NCBI RefSeq assembly: GCF_001648775.1
Contig: NZ_LVEJ01000005.1
Span: 78,793 to 142,792, forward strand
Reading direction: 5' to 3'
Source of the DNA: Pseudomonas fluorescens
GTDB lineage: Bacteria; Pseudomonadota; Gammaproteobacteria; Pseudomonadales; Pseudomonadaceae
Length of the DNA stretch: 64,000 nt
Positions 15,107-22,808 of the stretch are shown one piece after another. A program made the position numbers and the translations under genes. Positions within the stretch are counted from its first letter, which is position 1, and the number at the start of each line of letters is the position of its first letter. The notes under the pieces were generated by a model. The model made no database searches and was not told the DNA's origin. It saw nothing but the letters and a program-made list of their open reading frames with translations.

Positions 15107-15138
15107 CGCCGCTCCAGTCCCTTTGCATCGGCCACAAA

Positions 15139-15175
15139 AAAGCCCCGGACCATCACAGTCCGGGGCTTTCTCGTT
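15139..15175 (-). terminator. Bidirectional terminator, ancestral tRNA-Arg terminator
   Basis: 12-bp perfect stem AAAGCCCCGGAC (15139-15150) / GTCCGGGGCTTT (15158-15169). The six-T run is on the minus strand, so it is best read as the original terminator of the tRNA-Arg gene before the island separated them. It can also serve the small acidic gene on the plus strand. Confidence 0.8.
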
Positions 15176-15228
15176 TAAATCAATGGTGCACCAGGCGGGA
15201 TTCGAACCCACGACCCCTGCCTTCGGAG
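15164..15228. repeat. Left attachment-site repeat with tRNA-Arg 3' fragment
   Basis: 65 bases repeated directly at 22712-22776 with a single mismatch (T at 15187, C at 22735). It contains the last 45 bases of tRNA-Arg, including CCA, T arm and part of the anticodon stem, but no 5' half. This is the displaced native 3' end left by integration. Confidence 0.9.
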
Positions 15229-15523: not shown

Positions 15524-17146
15524 TCACACTAAGGGTGGCAGTCCCAGCTCTTTCAAGAAGGCATTGTGTTTGTCCCGTGACGCCTGAATTTTTTTTTCCA
15601 GTGTGACCAGTTCGGTGTTCACTTTTTGTAAATCAATCTCTGCCTCTGCGCTTGCCATGCTGACGTAGCGAGAAATATTCAGGTTGTAGCCGTTCTTCTC
15701 GATCTCCCCCATCTCAACCCGGCGGGCATAGTGAGGCTCCTCTTTACGGAACTGGTAGGTTTCGATGATATTGGTGATGTTCTCATCGGTTAGTTGGTTC
15801 TGACGCTTACCTTTAATGAAGTGTTCAGCCGCATTGATAAACAACACGTCATCCGGTTGCTTGCACTTTTTGAGCACAAGAATGCACACCGGGATACCTG
15901 TTGAATAAAACAGGTTGGAGGGCAAGCCGATCACAGTGTCGATATGACCGTCTTTTAGCAGCTTGGTGCGGATGCGTTCCTCGGCACCGCCACGGAACAG
16001 CACGCCGTGGGGCAGGATGATGGCCATCACGCCCTCGTCTTTCAGAAAATGAAAGCCGTGCAGCAGAAAGGCAAAGTCGGCAGCCGATTTCGGAGCCAGG
16101 CCGTGGTTTTTGAAGCGCACGTCATCGGCCATGGCTTCTGTTGGGTCCCAGCGGTAGCTGAAGGGCGGGTTGGCGACGACTGCATCGAACGCGGGTTTTT
16201 TAGCCGGGTTTAGCTCGCGCAAAATGTCCCAGTCGTTGCTCAAGGTATCGCCGTGGTAAATTTCGAACTCGGTGTCTTTCACCCCGTGCAGCAGCATGTT
16301 CATGCGGGCCAGGTTGTAGGTGGTGATGTTCTTTTCCTGGCCATAAATCTTGCCAATGCCATGCGCGCCCATACGCTTGCGTACGTTAAGCAGCAGCGAA
16401 CCAGAGCCACAGGCAAAGTCCAATACGCTTTCCAAGCGTTTTTTCGGGCCGGTATTAGGGGCCTGGCTGTCCAGGGTGACGATGGCGGATAGGATGTCGG
16501 ACATCTGTTGGGGCGTATAGAACTCGCCCGCTTTCTTGCCCGAGCCTGCGGCAAACTGGCCAATCAGGTATTCATAGGCATCGCCCAGTGCATCACTATC
16601 TGTGGAAAAGTCCGCCAGCCCCTCAGCGATCTTCTGGATGATGGTGCAGAGCTTAGCGTTGCGCTCCGTATAGCTCCTACCCAGCTTGGGGGAGCCCAGA
16701 TCGATTTCTGAGAAAAGGCCTTGGAAGGTGCTCTCAAAGGACTCAGTTTCGATGTATTTAAAGCCCGCTTGCAGAGTTGTGAGCAGGTCATAGTCCTGGG
16801 TGCGGGCCATATTAGCGATGCTGTTCCACAGGTGCACCGGCTCAATGACGTAATGCACCTTACGGCGCATCTGCTTCTCGAAGGCTGGGATGTCCGCTTT
16901 GTTCTCCTCATACCAGACTTGCAGAGGAGTCGATGCCCCCGTTTTTTGCAAAACGTCGATGGGTAACTCTGGATAGTCTTTTCCAAGTTCCTTCTTGGCC
17001 GCTATCTCGTAGTTGTCGGAGAGATAGCGCAGGAAAAGGAAGGACAGCATGTAGTCGCGAAAGTCGTCCGCATCCATAGCTCCTCGAAGTTGGTCGGCAA
17101 TGGCCCAGAGGGTGGAGCCCAGTTTCTTTTGGTTGGTGTCGTTCAT
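15524..17146 (-). CDS. hsdM: Type I restriction-modification DNA methyltransferase subunit HsdM
   Basis: 540 residues, typical HsdM length. N-terminal HsdM helical domain (about 8-150), then the N6-adenine methyltransferase domain with SAM-binding FACGSG (244-249) and catalytic NPPF (326-329). It methylates the recognition sequence set by HsdS and protects host DNA. Its start overlaps the stop of the PrrC-like gene by four bases, so it is last in an R-S-C-M operon. In many hsd loci hsdM comes before hsdS, so this order is uncommon. All key motifs are intact. Confidence 0.93.
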   Translation of the reverse strand: MNDTNQKKLGSTLWAIADQLRGAMDADDFRDYMLSFLFLRYLSDNYEIAAKKELGKDYPELPIDVLQKTGASTPLQVWYEENKADIPAFEKQMRRKVHYVIEPVHLWNSIANMARTQDYDLLTTLQAGFKYIETESFESTFQGLFSEIDLGSPKLGRSYTERNAKLCTIIQKIAEGLADFSTDSDALGDAYEYLIGQFAAGSGKKAGEFYTPQQMSDILSAIVTLDSQAPNTGPKKRLESVLDFACGSGSLLLNVRKRMGAHGIGKIYGQEKNITTYNLARMNMLLHGVKDTEFEIYHGDTLSNDWDILRELNPAKKPAFDAVVANPPFSYRWDPTEAMADDVRFKNHGLAPKSAADFAFLLHGFHFLKDEGVMAIILPHGVLFRGGAEERIRTKLLKDGHIDTVIGLPSNLFYSTGIPVCILVLKKCKQPDDVLFINAAEHFIKGKRQNQLTDENITNIIETYQFRKEEPHYARRVEMGEIEKNGYNLNISRYVSMASAEAEIDLQKVNTELVTLEKKIQASRDKHNAFLKELGLPPLV

Positions 17147-18264
17147 GGCGTGCCTAGGGGAACTGATACGGGCGCTGGCGCGTGCAGCACAAAGTTGTAC
17201 TTTTCCTTGAGGCCTTTGAATATCTTGTCAAAGGTCTTCAAGTTGTCGGGCACTACTTCATCGGATTCGAAATAGTAAACTTTTTTGTGCGAGAGCGTGT
17301 TAACGATGGTAGCTACTTCATCAGCATCCTCGATTCCTATCTGCTGGAGGACATAGCCAAACTGTCCTACCCCGAGGAACGAAGCAACGTTTTCTAAGAC
17401 CTGACGAAGCAGTGCAAAGTGATAGGACTTCACTTCACCTGCAGCGTGCGCCTGCTCCAAAACTTGAAGAAGGCGGAGGTGGTAGAGAAAGACATCCTTA
17501 CGGCAGCTCTCAAGTGAAATTTCACCGCTCTTTGAGCTGAGAGTGCAAACTCGCGCCTTGTCTTTGAATTTAGAGGCCTTCTCACCCTTCATCAGCCAGT
17601 CTGACATTACTGAAAAGAAACCGATGTGATGGGTGGTGATGACGAATTTCCGCGCTTTATAGTGCTCTTCAATCAAGTCAAAGAGGGTTGAGGCCGTGAT
17701 GAATATATTGTGGTCGTCCAGGCTCGAAACAGGATCGTCAATGAAGAAGTGGGAAGACTGCTTGTCTGCCCATCCCTCGACCTCAAAAAGGGCGAGAAAA
17801 AAGCACCAAACAAAAATCCTTTCTTCGCCCCGCGAAATTTTGCGCGGTACCTTTGAAATATTGTTTGGATCTTTCGGGTCGGCGACCTCATCAAAGAACA
17901 GCACAGACTTGATCCCATCTTCAGGGTTGTCGTGAGGGATGAAGTCAAACCTGTAATCTGGACGGAATCTGTTCAGCTTGTTGCGGATGTCATCTTCAGA
18001 GAGTGAGCTGTGAAAGCGATTCAAGCTACTCTTTCGAATATCTAGCTGGACGTTTGCTTCACCGTTTTCAGAATCGTTGTCCCATATAAAAAGATCTTCG
18101 CTGTAAGCATTGTAGTAGACACCAGTATGGGTGCCATCTGCGCTCTTTGTGGCGTCTTTGAAAGCAACGGACAATCTTGTCTTTCCGGTCGCGTTGAAGG
18201 CGTAGATGAGCACGATCTGCTCCTTAGCCCCCGCAAGCTCGTTGGCGATTATTGCGTGATTCAT
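17143..18264 (-). CDS. PrrC-like anticodon nuclease candidate (ABC-type ATPase plus C-terminal R-x3-E...H)
   Basis: 373 residues. An ABC/SMC-type ATPase domain comes first: Walker A AFNATGKT (22-29), signature SRGEE (144-148), Walker B FFIDD (173-177), D-loop SSLD, switch TTHH (211-213). The segment YYNAYSEDLFIWDND (50-64) is typical of the PrrC-type ATPases of restriction loci. In the C-terminal domain R287, E291 and H326 are placed much like the PrrC catalytic triad (Arg320, Glu324, His356). PrrC cleaves a tRNA anticodon loop when its partner type I enzyme is disabled by a phage inhibitor. Here it lies between hsdS and hsdM with four-base overlaps on both sides, which supports a physical link to the Hsd complex. 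Target tRNA unknown. Confidence 0.7.
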   Translation of the reverse strand: MNHAIIANELAGAKEQIVLIYAFNATGKTRLSVAFKDATKSADGTHTGVYYNAYSEDLFIWDNDSENGEANVQLDIRKSSLNRFHSSLSEDDIRNKLNRFRPDYRFDFIPHDNPEDGIKSVLFFDEVADPKDPNNISKVPRKISRGEERIFVWCFFLALFEVEGWADKQSSHFFIDDPVSSLDDHNIFITASTLFDLIEEHYKARKFVITTHHIGFFSVMSDWLMKGEKASKFKDKARVCTLSSKSGEISLESCRKDVFLYHLRLLQVLEQAHAAGEVKSYHFALLRQVLENVASFLGVGQFGYVLQQIGIEDADEVATIVNTLSHKKVYYFESDEVVPDNLKTFDKIFKGLKEKYNFVLHAPAPVSVPLGTP

Positions 18265-19553
18265 GCCACCTTCTCTTGAGTCGGGAAAAGTTGCTGCATA
18301 AGCCCTTGCTTGTGTGACCTAAGGGTTTCGTGTTTTTGGATTTGTGCGGCGATCAGGTCATCGAGGCTGGTGAGGCACGAGGCGATGCGTTGTTGTTCGG
18401 CTTTGTCTTTCGGAAAGCCGAACGGGAGAGTGCGTATGAGTCCTTGACTCAAACTCCCCTGTCCAGCAGTGTTGCTTAGTGCTCGAATCTCTTCGTAGCG
18501 GCTACACAAATTCAGAAAAGTGAAGTTAGGAATCACGACCTCAGTTGGTAGGATTGCGGCACAGTTCTGGTTAGTCGACGCTTCGCAGTCGAGTAATGCG
18601 ACTTTTCCGCGAGTTTTTCCTTGCCCAATCAGCGCGACCAGCACTGTATGTTTGGGAAATAACTTTGCCGAAGAGTTTTTTAAACCTTCATTAGTAATGA
18701 ATTCTTCTGCGCAGCTGATGACATTGAAATCTACTAGAGATGTTGTCACCCACGGAATTGAGCCATTCCAATATTCCAATTTAGAACGCTCTGGCGTCCC
18801 ACCTGCGGATGTGTCGAAAATGTCTCCTATCGTCTTCATCTCCCACCCCTCCGCGGTTTGGAATTCGGGGAAGCGGAACCGAGGTTGGGTTTCGCCTTTG
18901 CGGGGGAAAAGCTGCTGCATCAGCCCTTTTTGATGATACTTGAGTGCCGCCACTTTGCGGGCTTGCACGGCAATCAGCTCGTCCACCGAATTCAGGCACT
19001 CGGCGATTTTTTGTTGTTCGGCTGATTGCGTCGGAAGCGGCAAACGGCCAGAAAGGAAAGTCGTGTTTGTGATTTGGAGCGTATTCTTCGCACCCTTTTG
19101 GCAAAGAGGCGAAAGAAAGTCCTTCGACCGGTTTGGCGATTCAAAATAAGCTTCGATCATCAACCCTAGATGCTGGTTGAGCGGCGTGAAGACGCCGTAA
19201 AGAGGCGAGAGTGCTACTTCGCCGTCGAATTTGCATTGTTTTACAACTCCGAACGGGAAAGCCTTCAACGGACTCTTCGTGTAAACCACATCAAAGCGTC
19301 TACCTATCGTGTAGTTGGACGTGTCGGCGGCTGCGAAACTGCGGCCCAAGAGCTCAATCTGGTTGACGATCCCGTATTCCATCGAAACCGAAAAAACATC
19401 ACGGCCGGCGGTGTTCTTTATTTTGTGTTCTTTGAGGGCCTTCGAGAGCGGGTCATATGACCAAGGCTCGTCGAAGCCCGGAAACCGAAGTTTCGGCACC
19501 AGCGTAGCCTTGCTTTCTTCCTTTGCGCCGGTTGTATTTGTCTTACTGTTCAT
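18261..19553 (-). CDS. hsdS: Type I restriction-modification specificity subunit HsdS
   Basis: 430 residues with two target-recognition domains. The first spans about residues 20-190 and is followed by a conserved helical spacer (AEQQKIAECLNSVDELIAVQARKVAALKYHQKGLMQQLFP). The second runs to about 400 and is followed by a near copy of that spacer (EQQRIASCLTSLDDLIAAQIQKHETLRSHKQGLMQQLFP). The duplicated helices set the distance between the two half-sites. The start overlaps the hsdR stop by 11 bases. Target sequence cannot be inferred. Confidence 0.92.
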   Translation of the reverse strand: MNSKTNTTGAKEESKATLVPKLRFPGFDEPWSYDPLSKALKEHKIKNTAGRDVFSVSMEYGIVNQIELLGRSFAAADTSNYTIGRRFDVVYTKSPLKAFPFGVVKQCKFDGEVALSPLYGVFTPLNQHLGLMIEAYFESPNRSKDFLSPLCQKGAKNTLQITNTTFLSGRLPLPTQSAEQQKIAECLNSVDELIAVQARKVAALKYHQKGLMQQLFPRKGETQPRFRFPEFQTAEGWEMKTIGDIFDTSAGGTPERSKLEYWNGSIPWVTTSLVDFNVISCAEEFITNEGLKNSSAKLFPKHTVLVALIGQGKTRGKVALLDCEASTNQNCAAILPTEVVIPNFTFLNLCSRYEEIRALSNTAGQGSLSQGLIRTLPFGFPKDKAEQQRIASCLTSLDDLIAAQIQKHETLRSHKQGLMQQLFPTQEKVA

Positions 19554-22500
19554 AAGCGCTCAGTCCTGAAATTTCGCGACCTTGGGCGCGTTTAATAAGT
19601 AAGCCGTGCAGCTGTTTCATCAGCGCCAGTTCGGCCTGGGCGCGGGCTTTCCAGCCGAGGTCGAGCGGGGCCATAAGGTCGCTGAGTTGTTCGCCGTCGA
19701 AGACCATACGCTGCAGAATGCCCTCGACAAAATTTTGCAAGGCGGCTGGGGCTAGCCGGTGGTTGTTCGCAATATCAGCGAGTTCGGCAGCGTCTTTTTG
19801 TTGTTTAAAGCGGCTGTAGCCTTCGCGAATAGCCGTTTCGCTCAGGCCCTCACCAGCCTTGAGAGTGGCGATATAGGCGGCAATGTCTTCGCGCTCGTTA
19901 ATAAACTTGGCATCTGCTTGGATCAGGCCAATAAGCTGATCACGGCTCATCTTCTGCTTACTGGGTTCTTGCTGCGAGAAGCGTGACATCAGACCCATGA
20001 TGTAGTCGTAGTCGATTACGGCAGAGGCGAATAGCACGAATTCGAAATCGAGTTGGTCCACTGCATCGTTTTTGTCATCGGGGTTTTTGCTGTTCTTATC
20101 TTGCTGGGCTTTGAGGCGCTGGGCTGTTTCCAGATAGGCACCGCGAAACCCCAGCAGGCTGTCCTTGGGCAGAATCTGTTCGATGGCGGCGGCGTTGTCC
20201 GCGGTGAGGTCAGTGTATTGGTCGAGCTGGGTTTTGAGGCGCTGCACTTCCTTGAAGTGGCTGATAAAAGCGGCACGGGCATCGTCGCCTTTCAGGTTAT
20301 GCACGGCCTCCGGCGCGCAGGCTACGCCTTGCGATTGCATAAAATCATCTAGCTTTTGTACGGCAGCCTGTAGTTTTTCAATCACCACGGGGGCTTTGTC
20401 CACCAGCCAAATTTCCCGGGCCTGTGGGCTGGACTCTTCACCAGAAAATAGGCTGACGGCTGCGTCCACGGCCTCTTGCTGATGGCGGAAGTCGAGGATG
20501 TTGCCGAACGGTTTTATCCCAGTAGGGCCCTTGTCCGGTGCCTGAGTACTACTGAGCACACGGTTGGTACGCGAGAAGGCCTGGATCAAACCGTGATACT
20601 TAAGGTTTTTATCCACGTACAGGGTGTTCAAGTATTTGGAGTCGAAGCCGGTTAGCAGCATGTCGACTACGATGGTGATGTCGATTTTCTGCGCATGCGG
20701 GTGGTCGGCATTTGGCCACTGTTGATCTTTAATGCGCTTTTGCACATCTTGGTAGTAGAGGTCGAACTCGCTGATGCTATGGTTGGTGCCGTAGCGGCCG
20801 TTGTAGTCGGCCAAGATGGCTTTGAGCGACGCTTTTTTGCCTTCTGGATCTTCTTCATTGTCCTGCTTTTCTTGCGGCAGGTCTTCCTGAATTTGTTTGA
20901 CGTCCGCATTGCCTTCGGCAGGCGGCGAGAATACGCATGCGATATTCAGCGACTGGTAGTCAGAGTCGGCCAGTTGTTTGGCGTGTTGCAGTTCGGCAAA
21001 CAGGCTATGGTATTCGATGGCGTCGTTGATGCTGGCCGTCGCCAAAATGGCATTGAAACGGCGCTGCGCGGTAGCCATGTCGTGTTTGGCGAGAATGGCT
21101 TCTACCACGGCTCGCTTGGCTAAACCTTCCCCTGGCTTGGGTGTTTTCTTGCCTTCTGGTTTGAAGTAATCGATATGGAAGCGCAGCACGTTGGCGTCTT
21201 CAATCGCGTGGGTAATGGTGTAAGCGTGTAGCTGCTTCTGGAACAGCTCATTCGTGGTTTGGTAAGACGCCTGCTGGTCTTCCACTTTTACCCGTGAGGC
21301 GTTCTCTTCAAAGATGGGCGTGCCGGTAAAGCCAAAAAGCTGGGCCTTGGGGAAGAATTCTTTGATGGCTTTGTGGTTATCCCCAAACTGGGAGCGGTGG
21401 CATTCATCGAAGATAAACACAATGCGTTTGTCGCGCAGTGGGGCCAACAGCTCTTTGTAGGTGGGCTGGTCGTTGCGTTGGCGCTGCTTGTTGCGTTTGC
21501 TGCTTTCATCAAGGGCGAGACCGAGCTTCTGGATTGTGGTGACGATGACTTTATCTGCGTAGTCCTCGGACAGCAGCCGACGCACCAGTGCAGCGGTGTT
21601 GGTGTTTTCTTCGACGCAGCCTTCCTGGAACTTGTTGAATTCCTCACGGGTCTGGCGGTCGAGGTCTTTGCGGTCCACTACAAAGAGGCATTTCTCGATC
21701 TCCGGGTTGTCCTTGAGCAAGGTGGACGCTTTGAAAGACGTGAGTGTTTTGCCGCTACCGGTGGTGTGCCAGATATAGCCATTGCCACAGTTTTGCTCGA
21801 TGCAGTCGACAATGGCTTTGACGGCATAGACCTGATACGGGCGCATCATCATGAGCTTTTGCTCGCTCGCTATCAGCACCATGTAGCGGTTGATTGTTTG
21901 GCCAAGCGTGCATTTGACGAGGAAGGTCTCGGCGAAGCGGTCGAGGTAGGTAATCTTTTTGTTCGCCTCGTTAGCAAACTGATAGATGGGCAAGAAGCGC
22001 TCATCGGCGTTGAACGAGAAGTGACGGGCGTTATTGTTGGCAAAGTAGTAGGTGTTGTCGCGGTTGCTGACGATGAACATCTGCAGGAAGCAAAGCAAGG
22101 ATTTGGTGTAGCCGTTGCCGGGATCGTTTTTGTATTCGACGATTTGTTCCATGGCGCGGCGCGGATTAATACCCAGCGTTTTCAACTCAACTTGAACGCA
22201 CGGCACACCGTTGATGAGGATGAGCACATCGAAACGGTGGTGGCTGTTGTCGGTGTTGATGCGCAGCTGATTGACCACCTCGAAGGTGTTTTTGCACCAG
22301 TCTTTAATATTGACCAGTGTGTAGTTCAGCGGCGTGCCGTCTTCGCGGGTGAAGGCATTACGCTCGCGCAGGATACGCGCAGCAGCAAACACATCAGGGG
22401 TAACGATCTCGTCGAGCAGGCGAGCAAATTCGCCATCAGTGAGGCGAACACGGTTGAGGGCCTCGAATTTCTCGCGAAAATTTCGCTCTAGCGAGGCGCG

Positions 22501-22581
22501 GTCTGTGATGTCTGGGCGGTAGCTGTATTTGAGCTCAATTAGCTTGTCGATAAAGCCTTGTTCGATTCTTTGCTCACTCAT
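19543..22581 (-). CDS. hsdR: Type I restriction endonuclease subunit HsdR
   Basis: 1012 residues from the ATG at 22581; the frame extends to 22683, but the added residues look unlike HsdR. The N-terminal PD-(D/E)xK nuclease has D118 and the E-x-K pair E132/K134. The SF2 translocase follows with TGSGKT (about 274-279) and DECH (in FIFDECHRSQFG). The C-terminal helical part contacts HsdM. It cuts unmodified DNA after ATP-driven translocation. It is the first gene of the operon, so its promoter is in 22582-22711, next to the tRNA terminator. Confidence 0.93.
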   Translation of the reverse strand: MSEQRIEQGFIDKLIELKYSYRPDITDRASLERNFREKFEALNRVRLTDGEFARLLDEIVTPDVFAAARILRERNAFTREDGTPLNYTLVNIKDWCKNTFEVVNQLRINTDNSHHRFDVLILINGVPCVQVELKTLGINPRRAMEQIVEYKNDPGNGYTKSLLCFLQMFIVSNRDNTYYFANNNARHFSFNADERFLPIYQFANEANKKITYLDRFAETFLVKCTLGQTINRYMVLIASEQKLMMMRPYQVYAVKAIVDCIEQNCGNGYIWHTTGSGKTLTSFKASTLLKDNPEIEKCLFVVDRKDLDRQTREEFNKFQEGCVEENTNTAALVRRLLSEDYADKVIVTTIQKLGLALDESSKRNKQRQRNDQPTYKELLAPLRDKRIVFIFDECHRSQFGDNHKAIKEFFPKAQLFGFTGTPIFEENASRVKVEDQQASYQTTNELFQKQLHAYTITHAIEDANVLRFHIDYFKPEGKKTPKPGEGLAKRAVVEAILAKHDMATAQRRFNAILATASINDAIEYHSLFAELQHAKQLADSDYQSLNIACVFSPPAEGNADVKQIQEDLPQEKQDNEEDPEGKKASLKAILADYNGRYGTNHSISEFDLYYQDVQKRIKDQQWPNADHPHAQKIDITIVVDMLLTGFDSKYLNTLYVDKNLKYHGLIQAFSRTNRVLSSTQAPDKGPTGIKPFGNILDFRHQQEAVDAAVSLFSGEESSPQAREIWLVDKAPVVIEKLQAAVQKLDDFMQSQGVACAPEAVHNLKGDDARAAFISHFKEVQRLKTQLDQYTDLTADNAAAIEQILPKDSLLGFRGAYLETAQRLKAQQDKNSKNPDDKNDAVDQLDFEFVLFASAVIDYDYIMGLMSRFSQQEPSKQKMSRDQLIGLIQADAKFINEREDIAAYIATLKAGEGLSETAIREGYSRFKQQKDAAELADIANNHRLAPAALQNFVEGILQRMVFDGEQLSDLMAPLDLGWKARAQAELALMKQLHGLLIKRAQGREISGLSAYEQ

Positions 22582-22683
22582 GATGGTGCTCTGCAATCTT
22601 CGTATGGCCAGTAGTAAAACATGACTATTGTTGTTACCGCACACTCGAATCAGACTCAACCAGTTTGATTTTTCGTAAAGCAC

Positions 22684-22720
22684 AAAAAAGCCCCAAACCC
22701 AAAGGGCCTGAGGCTTTCTC
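22684..22720 (-). terminator. Present terminator of tRNA-Arg, carried in by the island
   Basis: On the minus strand, AAAGCC pairs with GGCTTT around an inner GGCCC/GGG stem, and is followed by TTTTTTG. It differs from the ancestral terminator at 15139, as expected if the island brought its own tRNA 3' end and downstream DNA. Confidence 0.65.
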
Positions 22721-22776
22721 GTTTAAATCAATGGCGCACCAGGCGGGATTCGAACCCACGACCCCTGCCTTCGGAG
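22712..22776. repeat. Right attachment-site repeat
   Basis: Direct copy of 15164-15228 with one mismatch at the tRNA discriminator base. It now forms the 3' part of the working tRNA-Arg gene. Confidence 0.9.
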
Positions 22777-22808
22777 GGCAGTACTCTATCCAGCTGAGCT
22801 ACTGGTGC
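22732..22808 (-). tRNA. tRNA-Arg (anticodon CCG)
   Basis: 77-nt cloverleaf on the minus strand: acceptor GCACCAG / CTGGTGC, D arm with AGCTCAGCTGGATAGAGT, anticodon stem CTGCC / GGCAG around loop CTCCGAA (anticodon CCG), T arm GTGGGTTCGAATCCCGC, encoded CCA. It is the integration target of the island on its left. The 5' 32 bases are native; the rest was restored by the island copy. Confidence 0.95.

Follow-up and report, generated by a model that had tools for sequence, protein, structure and literature searches.

In a 64,000-nucleotide stretch of Pseudomonas fluorescens DNA (assembly GCF_001648775.1, contig NZ_LVEJ01000005.1, positions 78,793 to 142,792; hereafter the window), the protein encoded between hsdS and hsdM of a type IC restriction-modification (R-M) operon belongs, as judged from its sequence, to the PrrC family of anticodon nucleases and not to a new kind of system. 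Across the genus, the PrrC lineage found in the window and a second one replace each other on closely similar hsdR and hsdM genes. It is highly probable that the window protein is a tRNA anticodon nuclease, predicted to be silenced by the surrounding type IC enzyme until a phage disables restriction, with a target that it likely reads otherwise than E. coli PrrC does. The genes of the operon are as follows.

17143..18264, minus strand: prrC of the window-type lineage, 373 amino acids, predicted ABC-type ATPase head and C-terminal HEPN-like nuclease domain
15524..17146, minus strand: hsdM, type I methyltransferase, 540 amino acids (PF02384, 6e-103; HsdM_N, 5.5e-23; TIGR00497, 392 bits)
18261..19553, minus strand: hsdS, specificity subunit, 430 amino acids, two Methylase_S stretches
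19543..22581, minus strand: hsdR, type IC restriction subunit (PF12008 EcoR124_C, 1.5e-65)

The order is hsdR-hsdS-prrC-hsdM (R-S-C-M), and the open reading frame of prrC, the third gene, begins with ATG and overlaps hsdS and hsdM by four bases each (ATGA in both cases). A preliminary description of this DNA had placed the gene between hsdS and hsdM with four-base overlaps on both sides; our coordinates confirm this, and the strand is minus. Because an HsdR with an EcoR124_C domain is encoded in the same operon, prrC is linked to a type IC R-M system. The reading frame is not a chance one, since the protein matches thousands of others (4475 of 6983 candidates at E<=0.001), is under purifying selection relative to the P. 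umsongensis copy (nonsynonymous rate dN 0.021, synonymous rate dS 0.228, ratio 0.094) and carries an invariant catalytic triad. The closest named protein among the best 120 of the 4475 matches is an 'anticodon nuclease' of P. umsongensis (94% identity), which is consistent with Pseudomonas as the host, as first proposed.

Every motif that had been named for the protein is present in the translation, and we located the following features within it.

18178..18201, minus strand: Walker A motif AFNATGKT, residues 22-29; G27, K28 and T29 invariant in 69 aligned sequences
18073..18117, minus strand: PrrC box YYNAYSEDLFIWDND, residues 50-64 (15 residues), with lineage-specific Ser55
17479..17508, minus strand: residues 253-262, aligned with the tRNA-Lys peptide 284-294 of E. 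coli PrrC; the alignment puts Lys256 in the Asp287 column
17404..17406, minus strand: Arg287, aligned with the catalytic Arg of other PrrCs, invariant in 89/89
17392..17394, minus strand: Glu291, aligned with the catalytic Glu of other PrrCs, invariant in 89/89
17287..17289, minus strand: His326, aligned with the catalytic His of other PrrCs, invariant in 89/89
17179..17529, minus strand: C-terminal domain, residues 246-362, predicted alone as five helices, HEPN-like

The stretch YYNAYSEDLFIWDND is one that we take, from its conservation, to be the published PrrC box. Together with Walker A, the motifs SRGEE (144-148), FFIDD (173-177) and TTHH (210-213) spread the ABC-type ATPase signature over the N-terminal two thirds of the protein, as in PrrC family members. 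The Arg-x3-Glu...His triad is invariant in all three PrrC groups described below (64/64 window type, 21/21 170 type, 4/4 E. coli type), so the conservation expected of R287, E291 and H326 among homologues held throughout. The PADLOC PrrC model matches the protein at E=1e-104, the next-best model at 2e-13. We predicted the C-terminal domain separately because Foldseek and VIA searches with the whole model see mainly the ATPase head, and compared it with HEPN folds; our sequence searches of the PDB matched no PrrC or RloC. Profile, motifs, predicted fold, operon context and tree thus all bear out the PrrC-family identity.

Other searches were negative within their scope. In sequence comparison with the PDB, the best E was 0.44 for the single protein and, with alignment A1 as the query, 0.077 for a match to an ABC ATPase. 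Viral predicted structures gave no match at E<=0.001, and Pfam found nothing above cut-off in the C-terminal piece, for the window protein and an E. coli-type control piece alike. A phage origin of prrC was considered and rejected, with no tblastn match in 50,697 phage records. Scans for promoters and terminators found no excess over shuffles.

The ATPase head resembles Rad50/SMC proteins, as would be expected of an RloC-like, DNA-damage-responsive nuclease that merely happens to sit in an hsd operon. RloC proteins, however, have 658-897 amino acids and a zinc-hook coiled coil with CXXC, and are R-M linked in 8/73 cases (PMC2610378), whereas the window protein has 373 amino acids and no CXXC zinc hook, the PADLOC PrrC model is its best match by far, and PrrC is linked to Hsd genes in 80/80 loci (the best 80 that we kept). 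We regard this explanation as extremely improbable. Membership in RloC itself was ruled out by the size of the protein and the missing zinc hook.

To place the protein within the family, we scanned contigs for PrrC relatives; at least 592 stretches matched, at least 569 of them encoding relatives, and the best 80 loci were kept. These loci, with plasmid, E. coli and relative loci, yielded an alignment of 95 proteins. The tree comprises 88 rows, seven of the 95 having been dropped as truncated (L070, L091) or as near-copies (L056, L059, L060, L093, L097); column counts use 89 rows, with L097 retained within the E. coli-type group. Groups were assigned by a single PrrC-box residue, position 55, which is Ser throughout the window-type lineage and Thr in both other groups; the box columns were kept in the tree, and L070, which has no box, was labelled window type by hand. 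Three groups emerged, namely the window type (Ser before EDLF), a second type in R-S-C-M operons, to which we give the name '170' after PrrC170, and an E. coli/Enterococcus type. Each forms one side of a branch, with supports of 100/100, 99/97 and 100/100, although a long-branch warning applies to the deep joins. The window and 170 types share a median identity of 32%, the window and E. coli types 30%, and the 170 and E. coli types 34%. On this sequence evidence the window protein represents a distinct, well-supported PrrC lineage. By the titles of their records, window-type loci occur in Pseudomonadota, Bacteroidota, Cyanobacteria, Nitrospira, Spirochaetes, Campylobacter, Paenibacillus, Chloroflexi and Planctomycetota. 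On plasmids, 113 records match, all below 60% identity, and none exceeds 39% among the 40 matches listed of the 113.

Lineage-specific change reaches the segment implicated in tRNA recognition. Peptide 284-294 of E. coli PrrC crosslinks to the tRNA-Lys anticodon stem-loop, and its Asp287 is thought to touch the modified wobble base (PMC3014915). By published accounts, only some PrrCs conserve this recognition segment. In our alignment, the Asp287 column is D in 4/4 E. coli-type proteins and mostly acidic in the 170 type (n=21: D 13, E 5, N 1, A 1, S 1), whereas the window type (n=64: K 30, N 19, S 5, R 4, D 3, G 2, T 1) is acidic there in only 3/64. After residue 257, a Pro present in 21/21 and 4/4 proteins of the 170 and E. 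coli types is replaced by Val in 58/64 of the window type. All window-type proteins have Gln288 beside the catalytic Arg, a residue that the other groups lack at this position. More broadly, 25 of 324 columns examined are lineage-specific; six of these lie in the C-terminal part, four of them at residues 258-263. Given this difference in the tRNA-recognition segment, the window PrrC likely departs from the way in which E. coli PrrC reads tRNA-Lys; its target may be another tRNA, or tRNA-Lys with a different modification.

Several observations weigh against this interpretation. Residue 257, one position past the Asp287 column, is D or E in 48/64 window-type proteins, so that the wobble contact may persist by a one-position shift. 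Asp287 was mapped through E. coli-type relatives and not EcoPrrC itself, and the distance from Asp287 to Arg320 is 33 in the published numbering versus 31 in the relatives used, so the true column may lie one or two residues away. The enrichment of lineage-specific columns (p of 0.006) refers to a region picked after the alignment had been viewed. Finally, a range of PrrC substrates has been anticipated: a review (PMC3014915, section 33) already allows for it, on the ground that the recognition sequence is variable. The remaining 19 of the 25 lineage-specific columns lie outside the nuclease domain, in the ATPase part, in keeping with the possibility that the window protein is an ordinary PrrC that cuts tRNA-Lys like EcoPrrC and PrrC170, the segment having changed by drift; the Pro-to-Val difference and the invariant Gln288 argue the other way. 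A greater departure, an effector with RNase or ATPase activity that leaves anticodons uncut and cleaves, for example, mRNA or another part of a tRNA, would fit the changed segment and the varied RNase activities carried by HEPN folds (PMC3710099). We consider it unlikely, given that box, triad, size and operon slot are the same as in PrrCs shown to target tRNA-Lys.

The exchange of lineages became apparent in a survey of the genus covering 298 genomes, sampled evenly from a larger group, in which a close HsdR was defined as a match at E<=1e-250. Nine of the 298 have a close HsdR, and all nine carry PrrC between hsdS and hsdM. The PrrC is of the window type in two (the window's own genome and G294, P. 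umsongensis, which is the same genome as locus L013, with identical PrrC) and of the 170 type in seven; the latter labels were confirmed by nearest relatives, with 57-100% identity to the 170 group and 32-36% to the window group. Identities to the window proteins illustrate the pattern.

G294: HsdR 95%, HsdM 93%, PrrC 94%
G234: HsdR 92%, HsdM 93%, PrrC 36%
G288: HsdR 91%, HsdM 91%, PrrC 33%
G264: HsdR 91%, HsdM 90%, PrrC 32%
G026: HsdR 86%, HsdM 84%, PrrC 32%

At the DNA level, hsdR and hsdM of G234, G288, G264 and G026 align with the window at 79-88%, and blastn finds no match across prrC; in G294, a 91% alignment runs through prrC. In two further genomes, G128 and G204, the PrrC is of the E. 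coli type (51%) and the Hsd genes are distant (HsdR 36%). Our literature searches, which covered open papers, found no description of PrrC lineage exchange on shared Hsd genes.

The same conclusion holds beyond the genus. A tree of 87 HsdM proteins requires 13 changes of PrrC type, of which 8-9 are forced by well-supported branches, and a tree of 71 HsdR proteins requires 10, again with 8-9 forced. Both trees are quick searches; the first omits L051 and L069 (too short), the near-copies L056, L059, L060, L093 and L097, and L001, and does not count L083, which has both types, while the second omits reading frames below 900 amino acids. PrrC types are nevertheless more clustered on both trees than in shuffles, and together with the forced changes this indicates that exchange has been repeated but not free. 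In L083, a Halomonas metagenome-assembled genome (5293-13086), both lineages occur in one operon, in the order hsdR, hsdS, window-type prrC, a gene for an LA2681-type HEPN protein, 170-type prrC, RhuM and hsdM.

The operon thus resembles a socket into which different tRNA cutters, possibly with different targets, can be fitted. We tentatively extend this to R-S-C-M type IC operons at large, at a probability clearly below even: the two PrrC lineages would cut different tRNAs, or differently modified tRNA-Lys, and would be repeatedly swapped and sometimes stacked because phages escape a given cutter through their own tRNAs or repair enzymes. Such phage tRNAs and repair enzymes may favour target variation, hence a variable PrrC slot beside stable hsdR and hsdM. 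The slot may instead vary through neutral replacement or through hitchhiking with hsdS. An ordinary PrrC with unchanged target, exchanged by recombination or hsdS hitchhiking, has a probability not far short of even; hsdS is itself variable (29-63% identity to the window), so hsdS and prrC may move together, but the persistence of both lineages side by side in L083 suggests that they are non-redundant.

Variation was also seen elsewhere in these operons. The first target-recognition part of hsdS (window positions 19022-19478) has no blastn match in the P. umsongensis operon (L013), which is otherwise 91-94% identical, a likely specificity swap. Seven loci carry an extra gene between prrC and hsdM, encoding RhuM (L015, L020, L043, L089), YhcG/DUF1016 (L030), Schlafen AlbA_2 (L079) or Bro-N (L087), making this gap a second variable slot of the operon. 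In three enterobacterial 170-type operons (L006, L093, L096), the space between hsdR and hsdS holds genes for a TrlF-family ATPase and an RNA-binding protein. In G236 (L151, 3572-6717), hsdR is split into two overlapping reading frames, and prrC and hsdM appear whole. In the window, the listed hsdR frame begins at 22683 (GTG); because homology in relatives starts only at residues 31-36, the ATG at 22581 is the likely start.

The operon lies at a tRNA gene, with the following features.

22732..22808, minus strand: tRNA-Arg(CCG), the insertion site of the operon
22681..22776, no strand: copy of a 96-nt repeat, holding the 3' 45 nt of the tRNA gene
15133..15228, no strand: second copy of the 96-nt repeat (89%), at the far end of the insert

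In three relatives (G019, G011, G016), both flanks are joined at a single repeat copy, as in an empty site, and the operon is therefore a 7,548-bp insert at tRNA-Arg(CCG). By the list of reading frames, the insert contains the four operon genes only and no integrase gene of its own. At the same tRNA-Arg, G026 carries an insert of ~15.9 kb in which a tyrosine integrase gene (PF00589, 1.1e-18) adjoins the tRNA and a 170-type hsd operon lies at the far end, by the tRNA fragment. The P. umsongensis copy of the operon is near tRNA-Met, and a direct-repeat search around it found no pair flanking the operon; the tRNA-Arg insert is therefore not the sole home of the operon. Additional copies of the tRNA-Arg 3' end in G015 (L122, 4113-4157, ~0.9 kb away) and G009 (L123, 260-304, ~11 kb away) suggest other inserts there.

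How the protein would act is suggested by its studied relatives. In E. coli, EcoprrI keeps PrrC silent until T4 Stp frees it, and the cut that PrrC makes is undone by T4 repair enzymes (PMC2610378). PrrC170, whose operon is ordered HsdR-HsdS-PrrC-HsdM, is active against T1 and T7, and its overexpression arrests growth; tRNA sequencing pointed to tRNA-Lys, and a phage tRNA-Lys rescued phages (PMC11555353). In P. syringae, the presence of PrrC correlated with resistance to some phages (PMC12447246). Because the window operon shares parts and order with that of PrrC170, the same logic is its best explanation. By this analogy with E. coli PrrC and PrrC170, from which we infer silencing, trigger, cleavage and phage protection, the ATPase head would dock on the Hsd complex and PrrC would be held silent. 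An anti-restriction protein, perhaps together with a changed nucleotide pool, would release it (in the PrrC family, an anti-restriction factor or dTTP is the expected releasing signal); the freed HEPN-like domain (R287, E291, H326) would then cut the anticodon loop, and translation would stop in the infected cell. Computation supports the earlier reading of the protein as PrrC-like; its role as a second-line anti-phage device is a prediction.

PrrC is a classic case of one defence guarding another, with a target known mainly as tRNA-Lys. The added interest here is twofold: lineages replace each other on one chassis, and the recognition segment has changed in a way that can be tested. Since both lineages, well separated as they are, occur on closely similar Hsd genes within a single genus, any divergence in trigger, phage range or tRNA target would be attributable to PrrC (or to hsdS and prrC as a block), and the chassis offers a way to find the Hsd surfaces able to hold two PrrCs only about one third identical.

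Among known systems, E. coli PrrC with the type IC enzyme EcoprrI shares with the window protein the ATPase motifs, the PrrC box, the catalytic triad and the position beside hsdS. It differs in sequence, in the recognition segment, which is changed in the window lineage, and in gene order, which is M-S-C-R in E. coli-type loci (L010, L094, L095, L097) as opposed to R-S-C-M; nuclease activity of the window protein is a prediction. RloC has in common with it an ATPase head and an Arg-x3-Glu...His nuclease domain but differs by its zinc-hook coiled coil and rare R-M linkage. PARIS (AriAB), like PrrC, has been called an 'RM guardian' able to sense the inhibition of restriction (PMC12707154), and its nuclease AriB, which also cuts tRNA (PMC12409363), is a Toprim nuclease and not HEPN as predicted for the window PrrC; the PADLOC search gave the window protein no PARIS family match. 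The operon of PrrC170 from Klebsiella quasipneumoniae has the same four genes in the same order. From its 35% identity to EcoPrrC, PrrC170 probably falls in the other R-S-C-M lineage, the '170' group, whose members are 30-40% identical to the E. coli type, compared with 26-34% for the window type.
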